From the NCBI RefSeq assembly GCF_029215995.1, contig NZ_JAEMVB010000001.1:124001-188000 (forward strand): a stretch of 64,000 bases of DNA, written 5' to 3'. Origin of the DNA: Sulfurimonas sp. SAG-AH-194-L11 (GTDB lineage: Bacteria; Campylobacterota; Campylobacteria; Campylobacterales; Sulfurimonadaceae). The first letter of the stretch is position 1; each line of letters begins with the position of its first letter. A program made the position numbers and the translations under genes. The notes beneath the pieces were generated by a model. The model worked only from the letters and a program-made list of their open reading frames with translations. It ran no database searches and was not told where the DNA came from. Positions 41,614-47,031 of the stretch are shown here, piece by piece.

Positions 41614-41686
41614 GCTCTTACCTCTCTTTTACTTTCCTTTAATTATATCTGTAAGATAATGTAAGTATATTATTAAGGAGATTGTC

Positions 41687-43483
41687 GTGAGATATCTATT
41701 TTTACTACTATTTTTACTATTTACAACTAATTTATTTGCATCTTATAAGACACCTTCTGATGTATATGCAGAATCTATAGTACTAAAAAATATTCTTATT
41801 GAGTTGAGAAAAGAGAATAAGATAGTAGATAAACTCAGAGTAGTGCCCGAGCAAAAAGATAAACTTCCTCGCCATGTGCTTCAAAAAACATTAGAGATTC
41901 TCAATAAGATAAATAAATATAGAGAGATAAATAACTTTGGTAAAATAACAGTTCCTCCAGTACCCTCAAGAGATATAACACCTCAAGATGTTTACAACAA
42001 TGTAGAAAGATTAAAAACAGAACTCTTGTATCTAGTAAGGAATAAAGTAGCCTTAAAAAAGTCACTCCAGCATTTAATAATATACACAAATAAGACACTT
42101 AATGATGTTTATAGAGAATTGTGGAGTATATCTTTAGCCTTTGATGCACTTTTAGGACAAGGTTTTACTCCTACAGATGTTTATATGCAGAGTGAAAAGA
42201 TACTCAATCTTGTTAAATTTTTACGTGCTTCGCAATACAAACAAGATAGTGTTAAAAAACCAAAACTAAAAGCTAACCAACACCCAAACCATGCACTATA
42301 TAAGTCTGTAGAACTGATAGAAAAAATAAATAAAATGCAAAAGAAGTTATGGATTAAACCAGTTCCTATACCTAAGATAAAACAAAAAGTGATTTCTCCA
42401 ACAGAAGTATATGACTCTCTTCAAACTGTTATTGCAGAATTAAACAGAGTATCTAGACGCTTGGGAATAGAACGCTCTTTTGATATAAAAGATATTGAGG
42501 AGAAAAAAACTCCTGCAGATGTTGTACAGAATTTAGAGTATGCTATATTACTTTTACCTTCTGTAAATTTTTCTACAAAATTGAACCAATATCCAAAAAG
42601 TTCACTACAAAAAACACCCAATGATGTTTTTGCTTTGAGTGAATTTATCTTGAAAAAACTTGAGTATATTAAAGTGCAAAAGGGAATACTTGTTAAAACG
42701 AAGAAAACATCTTATATTTATAGACTAAAACCTATACATGTATATGTAAAAGGTATTGAAAGCTTAGAAAAAGTAGCGAAGCTCAAAAGATTAGAGGGTT
42801 TTGAAGCTTCACAGGTACCCTCTCCTCCTATCATAAAAATTACACCAAGTGAGGTTTATGAGTTAATACTAAGACTTGATGATGAACTAAATTTAATATA
42901 CAAAGATAAGGGTTATGATACTAATAGCGTTTATAAAATAAGGTCTTTTAGAGAGGTCCTTGGAAAAGCACACTATTTAGATAAAACCTCTTCAGATGTA
43001 TATGATAATCTTTGGAAGATTTCTTATACCTTAGACTCTATTTTAAATGAAGACTACTCCCCAAATGAAACATATGCTTTAGCAAAAAAAATTCAAAATG
43101 ATATACACAACATTGCAAATCATTTTGTAGATAAACCGATAAAGATAAAGTTAACACACAGTAGCTCTAAGAGACCTGAAGATGTTTATGTTGAGTCACT
43201 AAAGCTTTTAAGAGAGCTCGAGCTTATAAAGCAGAGAGGAAACTTTAAATCAGTGACTATTACTCTCCCTAAAGAGGATATTATCACTCCAACATCTGTT
43301 TATAATGCTTTGCGTATTATAAGTGCAACTATCTCAGAGATAAATGTTTTTTATGATATTGGTAAAGCTAAAACAAGTCAAGAAAATAGTGAAAATAAAA
43401 CTTCATCTGATGTTTATGATGTTGTGCTCAATACAACGAAGATAATATCTTTTATCTTAAAGGATAGTAGTTATGAAGATTAG
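41687..43483 (+). CDS. Secreted protein with repeated TPxDVY motifs
   Basis: A 598-residue protein with signal peptide (1-18, LLLFTTNLFA), no other membrane helix, and no family I recognise. About 14 motifs of the form (T/S)PxDVY start helical units, near residues 22, 98, 138, 161, 237, 275, 310, 348, 386, 434, 458, 496, 534 and 572; two further units begin PxHxLxK (61, 200). A longer order is visible: the units at 138 and 434 share an LWxISxxxDxxL pattern followed by a second motif after 24 residues. Predicted all-helical periplasmic solenoid. GTG start with AAGGAG six bases before. The next gene, a Cache histidine kinase, begins inside its last codons (11-bp overlap), so it is likely a periplasmic partner of that kinase. 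Confidence 0.8.
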   Translation: MRYLFLLLFLLFTTNLFASYKTPSDVYAESIVLKNILIELRKENKIVDKLRVVPEQKDKLPRHVLQKTLEILNKINKYREINNFGKITVPPVPSRDITPQDVYNNVERLKTELLYLVRNKVALKKSLQHLIIYTNKTLNDVYRELWSISLAFDALLGQGFTPTDVYMQSEKILNLVKFLRASQYKQDSVKKPKLKANQHPNHALYKSVELIEKINKMQKKLWIKPVPIPKIKQKVISPTEVYDSLQTVIAELNRVSRRLGIERSFDIKDIEEKKTPADVVQNLEYAILLLPSVNFSTKLNQYPKSSLQKTPNDVFALSEFILKKLEYIKVQKGILVKTKKTSYIYRLKPIHVYVKGIESLEKVAKLKRLEGFEASQVPSPPIIKITPSEVYELILRLDDELNLIYKDKGYDTNSVYKIRSFREVLGKAHYLDKTSSDVYDNLWKISYTLDSILNEDYSPNETYALAKKIQNDIHNIANHFVDKPIKIKLTHSSSKRPEDVYVESLKLLRELELIKQRGNFKSVTITLPKEDIITPTSVYNALRIISATISEINVFYDIGKAKTSQENSENKTSSDVYDVVLNTTKIISFILKDSSYED

Positions 43484-45422
43484 TTTATCTTTTAAAGTAG
43501 CACTTGGTACTTTTGTAACAGCAGGAATGGGAGTTGTTATCATATCTATACTCTCCTACTCTCAAATGAGTCAATATTTTATGCAAAATACTCTTAGTTC
43601 TTTTAAGTTTGAGGTGAAAGAATCTGCAAATATGATTAAAAATGACTTGCAAAATGTAAAGATAGATGTACAACTTCTGATAAACAATGAAAATATATTA
43701 GCAATCGCTAGAGCAATGAAGAATAAATATAATTATGATGCAGTAAGTAATACAACTTTAGATGACTTAAAATTAAAGCTTGGAAAAACTTTTAAAGCTA
43801 TACTTGAACATAATAATGCTTACTTTAATGTAAGACTTATAAAGGCAGATGGGCAAGAGCTAGTTGTAGCACTAAAAGAAGATGAAAATAACATAATTAT
43901 TACAAAAGAAGACAACTTACAAAACAAAGCTAATAGACATTATTTTAAAGAACTACTTAAGCTTGAAGAAGGGGAAATATATATATCAAAAATAGAGCTC
44001 AATAAAGAACACGGGCAGTTCTCTTTTCCATATATACCTACAATTCGTGTTGCCTTACCTCTTTTTATAGATAAGAAAGTCTTTGCAGTGCTTATTATTA
44101 ATGCTAATATTTATAAACTATTTTCTCCACTCAGAAATACTGTAGATGAGAATAAAGAGATTTATTTGACGAATGAAGATGGGTACTATCTGTATCATAA
44201 AGATAAAGATAAAACATTTGGCTTTGAGTTAAAACATGAGTCTAATATAAAAAATGATTTTGATTTAACTGAAGATGCATATTTTAAAGATGGTATAGTT
44301 TTTGCCCATACTAAAATACAAATCAGTAAGGATAGATATCTTGAAATTGGACTTAGTTCGACAGATAAGTTCTTAAAAGAGCAGTTTTCTGAATATAAAA
44401 AGACACTTGGATTCTCTATTTTTATAGTGACTCTCGTAATCGCTATAATCTCTCTAATGCTTGTGAAGTTTTTAATCACTCCTATGGTTAAACTTACAAA
44501 AAAAGCTCAAGAGATAACATCTGGTGATATGAATGAAGCGATAGAGTTTGAGATATTTACAAGTTCTGATGAAATTGGAGAGCTCTCAAGGTCTCTTAAG
44601 AGAATGATACGAAAAATAGAAAACTCTAAAAAAGAGGTTGAAAAAGAGGTTGAGGAGCGAACACATGAGCTTAAAGTACTTAATGAAAATTTAGAGAAAA
44701 TTGTACAAGAGAAGACTGCTGAAAATATAAAACAACTTGAAGCTATGCAGCAACAGAGTAAAATGGCCTCTATGGGAGAGATGATAGGGGCTATAGCCCA
44801 CCAATGGAGACAACCACTTAATGAGATAAGTATTAGTATACAAAATTTGAAGTATGATTATGAAGATGGTGTTATTGATGAAACTTTTATTAAAAATTTT
44901 ATAGAAAAAAATAAAGAAATCATACACTTTATGTCTACAACAATAGATGATTTTAGAAACTTTTATAGAGTAGATAAAACAAAAGAGATATTTGATGTAA
45001 AAGAAGCGATAGAGAAGACAATATCTCTACAAAAAGCACAGCTTTTAAATAATAATATTACTATCTCTATTAAGGGTGAAAGTTTTAAAGTGAATGGGTT
45101 TAAAAATGAATTTCAGCAGGTTGTTTTAAATCTGATCAACAATGCTAAAGATGCAGTTTTAGAAAAGGGTGTTGCAGATGCAACTATATCTATTGAGTTA
45201 AACAATAGATGTGTAATTGTACGAGATAATGGTGGAGGGGTTTCAAAAGAGATAATAACACGAGTTTTTGAACCATACTTTACGACTAAAGAACAGGGAA
45301 AGGGAACTGGAATGGGACTGTATATGTCTAAGATGATTATAGAAGAAAATATGGATGCAAAACTTAGTATTTCTAACACAAAGGATGGTGTTGAAATAAG
45401 GATGGATTTTAATGCAATATGA
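43473..45422 (+). CDS. Cache-domain sensor histidine kinase
   Basis: A 649-residue kinase. TM1 (about 10-28), periplasmic Cache-type sensor (about 35-305), TM2 (about 312-334), HAMP (about 335-388), coiled coil (388-430), H-box HQWRQPL with His near 443 and an ATPase domain with LINNAKDA, DNGGGVS, FEPYFTTKEQ and GTGMGLYMSK. Starts inside the repeat-protein gene and its TGA lies inside the next regulator's start region (11-bp overlap), so three proteins are made from coupled frames. Together they probably sense an extracytoplasmic signal, possibly via the repeat protein, and act on the diguanylate cyclase. Confidence 0.92.
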   Translation: MKISLSFKVALGTFVTAGMGVVIISILSYSQMSQYFMQNTLSSFKFEVKESANMIKNDLQNVKIDVQLLINNENILAIARAMKNKYNYDAVSNTTLDDLKLKLGKTFKAILEHNNAYFNVRLIKADGQELVVALKEDENNIIITKEDNLQNKANRHYFKELLKLEEGEIYISKIELNKEHGQFSFPYIPTIRVALPLFIDKKVFAVLIINANIYKLFSPLRNTVDENKEIYLTNEDGYYLYHKDKDKTFGFELKHESNIKNDFDLTEDAYFKDGIVFAHTKIQISKDRYLEIGLSSTDKFLKEQFSEYKKTLGFSIFIVTLVIAIISLMLVKFLITPMVKLTKKAQEITSGDMNEAIEFEIFTSSDEIGELSRSLKRMIRKIENSKKEVEKEVEERTHELKVLNENLEKIVQEKTAENIKQLEAMQQQSKMASMGEMIGAIAHQWRQPLNEISISIQNLKYDYEDGVIDETFIKNFIEKNKEIIHFMSTTIDDFRNFYRVDKTKEIFDVKEAIEKTISLQKAQLLNNNITISIKGESFKVNGFKNEFQQVVLNLINNAKDAVLEKGVADATISIELNNRCVIVRDNGGGVSKEIITRVFEPYFTTKEQGKGTGMGLYMSKMIIEENMDAKLSISNTKDGVEIRMDFNAI

Positions 45423-47031
45423 AAATATAACAATACTTTATGTAGAGGATGAAACAGCTACTAGAAAAATGCTTGGAGATTTTATATCTCGTTTTTGTGG
45501 GAAACTGTTGACAGCTAAAGATGGAGAAGAAGCTTTAGAGATATATGAACAAAATTCTATTGATATTATTATTTCAGACATTAAAATGCCTAAAATAAAT
45601 GGTATTGAGATGGTAGAAGCTATCAAAAAGTTAAACAAGGAGCAACTGGTTATCTATACAACTGCTCATATAGATAGTGAATATCTTTTTCGTGCTATTG
45701 AACTTCAGGTTGATGGGTATATCTCAAAGCCAGTAGACTTAGATAAGCTAAGGTTTAGAATAGAGAAGTGTATCAATGAAATTGAGTCAAAAAAGACCAT
45801 TTTACAACTCCAAGAGAGTGAAGAAAAATTTAGAAAAATTTCTCAAACTGCACAAATGGGTATATTTATATACCAGAAAACATTTGTTTATGTCAATGAA
45901 GCCTTTTGTAAAATGACTGAGTACTCAGAAGAAGAGCTGCTTAATATGCTACCCTGGGAGATGTTTGATAAAGATAGTGTAGATAAGATAAGGGAGGTTT
46001 CTTTACTTCGAGTTAAGGGTGAAGTCTTCCCTGAAATATATAATGATGCAAAACTCATTACAAAGAGTGGAAACGTTCTCATCTGTCGGGCGAGTACAAA
46101 TACTATAGAGTATGATGGTGGATATGCAGGAGTAGGCTCTATCGTAGACATAACAGATGTGATTGAGACTAAAGAGCAGTTAAAACTTCTTGGACAAGCT
46201 ATAGAACAGATGGATGAAATGGTTCGTATTACAGATAAGCAAGGAATTATCACCTATGTTAATAAGGCTTTATTAAAACACACGAAGTATAAAAAGAGTG
46301 AGTTGATTGGAAAATCAAACCATCTTTTCAAATCTGGAAAACATTCAGATTCTTTTTATAAGATTTTATGGGAGACAATTCTTACTAAAAAAACTTTTCA
46401 AGCTATTTTTATGAATGTAAAGAAAGATGGAGAGCTCTACTATGAAGACCAAACAATAACACCAATTTTAGACGATAACAATAAGATAAAATACTTTGTT
46501 TCAACAAGTAAAGATGTAACAGAGAAGATGAAGCTAGAAGAAAAATTGACCACTCTTGCAACTATTGATGCATTAACAGGAATCTATAATAGGTATAAAA
46601 TAAACTTACTTATAGAAGAAGAGATAAACAGGGTAAATCGTTATGGAGGGGCATTTGCACTTTTCATGTTTGACTTAGACTTTTTTAAGAATGTGAATGA
46701 TACATATGGACATGATGTCGGGGATTATGTTCTTCAAGAGTTTACTAGAATCATTAAAAATTCAGTACGAGATACAGATAAGTTTGGAAGATGGGGAGGA
46801 GAAGAGTTTATGTTACTCTCTTTGGATATAAATTCAGTAATATCATTTGCACAAAAATTATGCCTTCGTGTAGCAGAACATAAGTTTAAAGATATAGGTC
46901 ATATTACCGTGAGTATTGGAATAGCACTTTACGATAAGAGTAAAAGTAAAAAACAACTTTTAAAAGAGGTAGATAATGCTCTTTATGAAGCTAAAGAGGG
47001 GGGACGTAATATGGTTGTCCTCTCTAAATAG
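45412..47031 (+). CDS. Response regulator diguanylate cyclase (REC-PAS-PAS-GGDEF)
   Basis: A 539-residue protein. REC (about 1-130: YVEDE, IIISDIKMP, YTTAH, ISKPV), PAS1 (about 138-255: GIFIYQKTFVYVNEAFC, GSIVDITD), PAS2 (about 258-375: RITDKQGIITYVNKA, VSTSKDVTE) and GGDEF (about 380-537) with an intact GGEEF (RWGGEEFMLL), so it should make cyclic di-GMP. Last of the repeat protein - kinase - cyclase operon; phosphorylation by the coupled kinase is the obvious input. The receiver resembles that of the partial gene at 1-381. Confidence 0.92.
   Translation: MQYENITILYVEDETATRKMLGDFISRFCGKLLTAKDGEEALEIYEQNSIDIIISDIKMPKINGIEMVEAIKKLNKEQLVIYTTAHIDSEYLFRAIELQVDGYISKPVDLDKLRFRIEKCINEIESKKTILQLQESEEKFRKISQTAQMGIFIYQKTFVYVNEAFCKMTEYSEEELLNMLPWEMFDKDSVDKIREVSLLRVKGEVFPEIYNDAKLITKSGNVLICRASTNTIEYDGGYAGVGSIVDITDVIETKEQLKLLGQAIEQMDEMVRITDKQGIITYVNKALLKHTKYKKSELIGKSNHLFKSGKHSDSFYKILWETILTKKTFQAIFMNVKKDGELYYEDQTITPILDDNNKIKYFVSTSKDVTEKMKLEEKLTTLATIDALTGIYNRYKINLLIEEEINRVNRYGGAFALFMFDLDFFKNVNDTYGHDVGDYVLQEFTRIIKNSVRDTDKFGRWGGEEFMLLSLDINSVISFAQKLCLRVAEHKFKDIGHITVSIGIALYDKSKSKKQLLKEVDNALYEAKEGGRNMVVLSK

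Follow-up and report, generated by a model that had tools for sequence, protein, structure and literature searches.

The gene for a predicted exported helical-repeat protein (REP) in Sulfurimonas sp. SAG-AH-194-L11 forms a real and well-supported genetic module with the genes for a membrane histidine kinase and a diguanylate cyclase that follow it. REP belongs to an undescribed family, for which the role proposed here is of a known kind, i.e. that of the accessory proteins of sensor kinases: we think it rather probable that REP acts as a soluble periplasmic accessory (co-sensor) of the neighbouring dCache receptor. Positions below refer to the whole stretch of 64,000 nucleotides that was analysed (the window).

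Gene order and the three encoded proteins

The three open reading frames are arranged head to tail, all on the + strand, and both junctions (REP/kinase and kinase/cyclase) are 11-bp overlaps (Table 1), exactly as the preliminary description had given them. REP has a GTG start codon 6 nt 3' of an AAGGAG sequence, and a hydrophobic, signal-peptide-like N-terminus can be read from the sequences of the window REP and nearly all of its homologues. Because of this N-terminus, and because the mature window protein contains zero cysteines, REP most likely leaves the cytoplasm through the general export pathway and is not a lipoprotein, in keeping with the earlier proposal, also made by sequence, that it is exported; its pI is 9.4. 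The kinase comprises a PF21623 sensor, HAMP, HisKA and HATPase domains (Pfam), with the sensor match (83.9 bits) above the curated cut-off of 27, and the solved structures nearest to this sensor are 3lid and 2p7j (E=5.5e-11). The GGDEF domain encoded by the third gene (PF00990, E=2.2e-41) has its GGEEF motif intact in the sequence.

Table 1. Features of the REP/kinase/cyclase locus (window positions) and the basis of each assignment.
Feature	Position	Strand	Basis
AAGGAG ribosome-binding site of REP	41675..41680	+	sequence
REP, 598-aa helical-repeat protein, predicted to be exported, GTG start	41687..43483	+	no Pfam, NCBIfam or PDB match
REP residues 1-18, predicted signal peptide (MRYLFLLLFLLFTTNLFA/SY), lacking a lipobox cysteine	41687..41740	+	sequence reading
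REP module M1, helices open at 22, 60, 98, 137	41741..42157	+	helix prediction, profile comparison
REP module M2, helices open at 161, 199, 237, 275	42158..42604	+	helix prediction, profile comparison
REP module M3, helices open at 310, 348, 386, 434	42605..43048	+	helix prediction, profile comparison
REP module M4, helices open at 458, 496, 534, 572	43049..43480	+	helix prediction; modelled alone
Membrane histidine kinase, overlaps REP by 11 bp	43473..45422	+	ORF, Pfam
Kinase extracytoplasmic dCache sensor domain, PF21623	43560..44408	+	E=1.3e-23
REC-PAS-PAS-GGDEF response regulator (diguanylate cyclase), overlaps kinase by 11 bp	45412..47031	+	ORF, Pfam

Repeat anatomy, predicted fold and distribution of REP

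The preliminary description had counted about 14 (T/S)PxDVY motifs in REP, together with a higher-order repeat. The motif does recur, but the count requires revision: the strict pattern [TS]PxDVY is present in 3 copies only, a relaxed form ([TS][PSL]x[DE]V[YFV]) in 10, against 0.03 expected and a maximum of 2 in 20,000 shuffles, and there are 16 positions once divergent copies (PRHVLQ, PNHALY, KPIHVY and TPNETY-like) are included. Helix prediction and profile comparison indicate that each motif, as a TPxDVY-like N-cap, opens a helix of ~21 residues, at the approximate residue numbers listed in Table 1. Since the motif positions group as four modules of four, the higher-order repeat is real and takes a 4x4 form, i.e. 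sixteen helices divided among four modules (M1-M4) that are homologous and each about 140 residues long. In profile comparisons the modules are pairwise homologous with E of 1e-12 to 1e-30, the closest pairs being M1 with M3, and M4 with the second module of a shorter form of REP, and M2 having no clear closest relative. Whole-genome searches recovered these two forms, long (~600 aa, four modules) and short (~300 aa, two modules); as the short form aligns to either half of the long one, the preferred reading is that long REP arose when a two-module unit was duplicated in tandem.

Structure predictions were performed with the window REP and sequences from two further loci (L026 and L027), both labelled Sulfurimonas. 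Helix positions alone were taken from the AlphaFold model of whole REP (three sequences, pLDDT 43). For M4, modelled from an input of this module and eleven others from three proteins, the prediction (pLDDT 84.8, pTM 0.82) contains four helices (residues 5-26, 43-63, 81-101 and 119-139) separated by loops of 16-18 residues, which could cross over between parallel helices. Foldseek comparison of this model with PDB and viral structures returned zero matches at E<=0.001; long-chain cytokines headed the PDB list, with E of 0.2 or worse and rmsd of about 17. Aspartase, the best VIA match of M4 (Z 5.0), was rejected as not meaningful given the helical model. This absence of a convincing fold match does not amount to proof of a new fold.

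REP has no matches in Pfam (whole protein, E<=1), NCBIfam or PDB, which bears out the earlier remark that the repeat protein has no known family. A REP sequence profile gave chance-level matches only against PDB (best E 0.035), comparison with PHROGs gave weak, scattered matches only, and no relatives were found in plasmids and viral contigs. The WY-domain effector family (PexRD54_WY, PF22748) was considered and rejected: 10 of 38 REP half-proteins match it weakly (best E=1.6e-4) and whole REP does not at E<=1, so that these matches likely reflect shared helix-cap chemistry. A search of the literature returned no publication about REP and only a few on c-di-GMP in Sulfurimonas. Profile searches, which covered genomes within this phylum, identified REP-like sequence in 29 of 135 genomes of the genus, in 22 of 399 genomes sampled from the order (12 of 87 genera), and in 11 of 397 genomes of a phylum sample, all 11 from the same order.

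Association of REP with PF21623 receptors

Within the genus, REP lies no more than 4 kb from a PF21623 receptor gene at 27 of 30 places, where 0.14 would be expected by chance; of the three unlinked places, one is a fragment at the edge of a contig and two are remnants. Outside the genus, 15 of 20 REP genes adjoin a PF21623-type sensor (14 in kinases, one in a SpoIIE-type phosphatase); three, all from G093, adjoin other membrane receptors (an MCP and two of PAS-GGDEF type), and two (G100:C67 and G526) have no adjoining receptor. All receptor sensors scanned singly with Pfam were PF21623, the others being assigned by a PF21623 genome search, by a profile built from linked sensors or by their resemblance to the kinase of the window. 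A survey of the kinase neighbours of REP homologues, as proposed in the preliminary description, is on these figures strongly positive. REP is almost always the gene immediately 5' of the receptor, with the 11-bp overlap found in the window and several relatives, and the REP/kinase/cyclase trio travels as one cassette and occupies different chromosomal sites: it is flanked by an RNase J-like gene on one side and by folE/fliI-like genes on the other (names that are our own reading of the sequences) in the window and several relatives, and in others it is found elsewhere.

The outputs encoded beside REP differ, and include kinases, hybrid kinases and a SpoIIE phosphatase, with an MCP or PAS-GGDEF proteins beside divergent copies. 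The kinase/GGDEF pair, which the preliminary description had proposed to look for beside the homologues, is not constant as such; because the outputs vary, it is the PF21623 dCache sensor module that constitutes the constant partner of REP, and because a SpoIIE phosphatase (G429) possesses both the same sensor type and a REP, the conserved pair is that of REP and sensor. The PF21623 family is itself wider than this partnership, since only 27 of its 84 genes in the genus have REP within 4 kb (57 do not); in many of the REP-less genes examined, the encoded receptor itself contains GGDEF.

A tree of 53 sensor domains groups the receptors that adjoin long REP in one clade (100/99) and those that adjoin short REP in a second (100/97); the sampled PF21623 proteins with a different architecture, which have no REP and mostly carry GGDEF, fall outside both. 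Five receptors within these clades have no visible REP, three of them at contig edges and two (G056 and G023) representing real absences at the locus. REP is thus not strictly needed, since both of these kinases belong to the clades, lie off the contig edge and are without REP. In G056 (L120:3790-3930) the kinase-cyclase pair is retained and REP is cleanly missing, with ~80 bp from the kinase to the upstream gene. Its sensor, but not its kinase core, has diverged faster than that of its sister (to the same relative, 60 vs 70% for the sensor and 85 vs 86% for the kinase core); as a single case, a tie between this change and the absence of REP is only suggestive.

Several unusual REP loci were also observed. 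A short REP heads a conserved cassette at L042:9326-18531 (G061), and similarly at L039, L045, L048 and L100-L104, followed by genes for a hybrid kinase (Cache-HAMP-GAF-HisKA-REC), a CheB-CheR fusion, a REC-GGDEF cyclase and, often, a REC-PAS-HD-GYP-type protein; by this domain content, for which the Pfam check was made on L042 only, the cassette appears to cover both making and breaking of c-di-GMP. At L107:5880-10083 (G429), REP is located between genes for a DUF6272 protein and a Cache-GAF-SpoIIE phosphatase, an arrangement that we take to resemble Sia-type partner switching. G093 (L033, L049 and L109) has four REP genes: a long copy with a hybrid kinase as its neighbour, and three divergent short copies adjoining PAS-GGDEF-type receptors and an MCP, the sensors of which gave no match to the dCache profile built here. 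At L037:8575-10284 (G100:C67), a divergent long REP stands alone beside a gyrA-like gene; because a signal-peptide-like segment precedes its first usual start codon, translation may start from a rare codon or the gene may be in decay. Finally, short REP remnants without an adjoining receptor at L110:6617-6814 (G065) and in L093 (G022:C52:17713-17922) suggest loss of the module in some genomes.

Proposed role of REP and its alternatives

Because REP and the sensor remain constant while the cytoplasmic output changes, a role for REP at the periplasmic sensor is most likely and, being nearly always beside one type of membrane sensor, REP is therefore probably the periplasmic partner of that sensor. 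In the putative mechanism, REP would dock onto the Cache domain of the kinase in the periplasm, its modules would bind a ligand or envelope component, and docking would bias the kinase between on and off states; the kinase would then phosphorylate REC of the adjacent PAS-PAS-GGDEF protein, such that a periplasmic signal would set c-di-GMP synthesis. We infer this chain, from REP through Cache domain, kinase and REC to GGDEF, from gene order and domain content. Contact with peptidoglycan, which the preliminary description had suggested as an alternative to ligand binding, is not supported. Across 21 long REPs, conservation peaks in helices 2 and 4 of M1 and helices 3 and 4 of both M2 and M3, and is lowest in M4 with the exception of its third helix, making M1-M3 the first place to search for a binding surface. 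Electrostatic docking of basic REP onto an acidic sensor was discarded, as the linked sensors are not acidic (median pI 8.6 vs 9.4 for REP).

Helical accessory proteins have precedents in CpxP-CpxA (PMC4160245) and QseG-QseE (PMC12691602), and the known systems nearest to REP share some of its features and differ in others. LuxP, an alpha/beta periplasmic binding protein, is encoded directly upstream of LuxQ, a kinase with a double PAS-like periplasmic domain. The REP-kinase pair is similar in gene order and sensor type, but REP is all-helical and repetitive, and a two-lobed alpha/beta fold of the LuxP type was rejected on a prediction that is all-helical with zero strands. QseG, helical and encoded with its kinase as REP is, is an accessory that binds the periplasmic sensor of QseE (PMC12691602). 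However, QseG is an outer-membrane lipoprotein and the QseE sensor a four-helix bundle (PMC12691602), whereas REP lacks a lipobox cysteine and its putative partner is a dCache sensor; identity as a QseG-type lipoprotein was dismissed for the cysteine-free mature window REP. CpxP is, as proposed for REP, a helical, soluble periplasmic accessory of a sensor kinase, in this case CpxA, whose sensor is PAS-like (PMC4160245; PMC11078701); both salt and a misfolded pilus subunit displace it from the kinase (PMC4160245). REP, all-helical, predicted to be soluble and periplasmic, and encoded beside a sensor kinase, might accordingly be a negative regulator of the CpxP kind, displaceable as CpxP is from CpxA (PMC4160245), that holds the kinase off until displaced or degraded upon envelope damage, without a small-molecule ligand. 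We regard this as decidedly unlikely: the Spy/CpxP (LTXXQ) profile gave no match to whole REP (Pfam, E<=1) or among the 25 of 28 families listed for 38 half-proteins, REP is considerably longer and built from modules, with 8 or 16 helices in all, and the output of its system is a diguanylate cyclase, not an envelope-stress regulon. As to a Spy/CpxP fold, the module model of REP shows four 21-residue helices and long loops, and the fold search was without convincing match.

Gene adjacency is also compatible with REP being an exported product of the system. In place of a sensor partner, REP might be a structural or surface protein that is expressed together with the system, e.g. a matrix, envelope or adhesion protein accompanying c-di-GMP signalling, which would be consistent with the multi-module, basic (pI 9.4) and helical nature of REP, with its sharing an operon with a diguanylate cyclase, and with the existence of some receptors without REP. 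Nevertheless, we consider this unlikely in view of the position of REP, which is nearly always directly 5' of the receptor and follows sensor type and not output, and of its occurrence also beside a SpoIIE phosphatase and an MCP. It is very improbable that REP and receptor are functionally unlinked and owe their co-inheritance only to hitch-hiking in an operon that was transferred a few times; patchy spread (29/135 genomes in the genus, 22/399 in the order) and the differing chromosomal sites of the cassettes are compatible with such a history, but the link persists across about a dozen genera, in long and short forms and with varied outputs and neighbours.

The preferred assignment of REP as a periplasmic accessory of the dCache receptor could be extended, tentatively and with more doubt than confidence, to a founding role among modular 'quad-helix' periplasmic adapters, possibly of an unsolved fold, that would connect one kind of input to several receptor classes (kinase, phosphatase, chemoreceptor and cyclase), with module number (2 or 4) matching receptor type. 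To our knowledge, only a minority of Cache receptors and cyclic di-GMP pathways have a known signal. A periplasmic partner that is dedicated to its receptor and inherited with it would provide a direct handle on what receptors of this class sense in Sulfurimonas-like bacteria, and REP would extend the short list of known sensor-kinase accessory proteins by an unrelated family.
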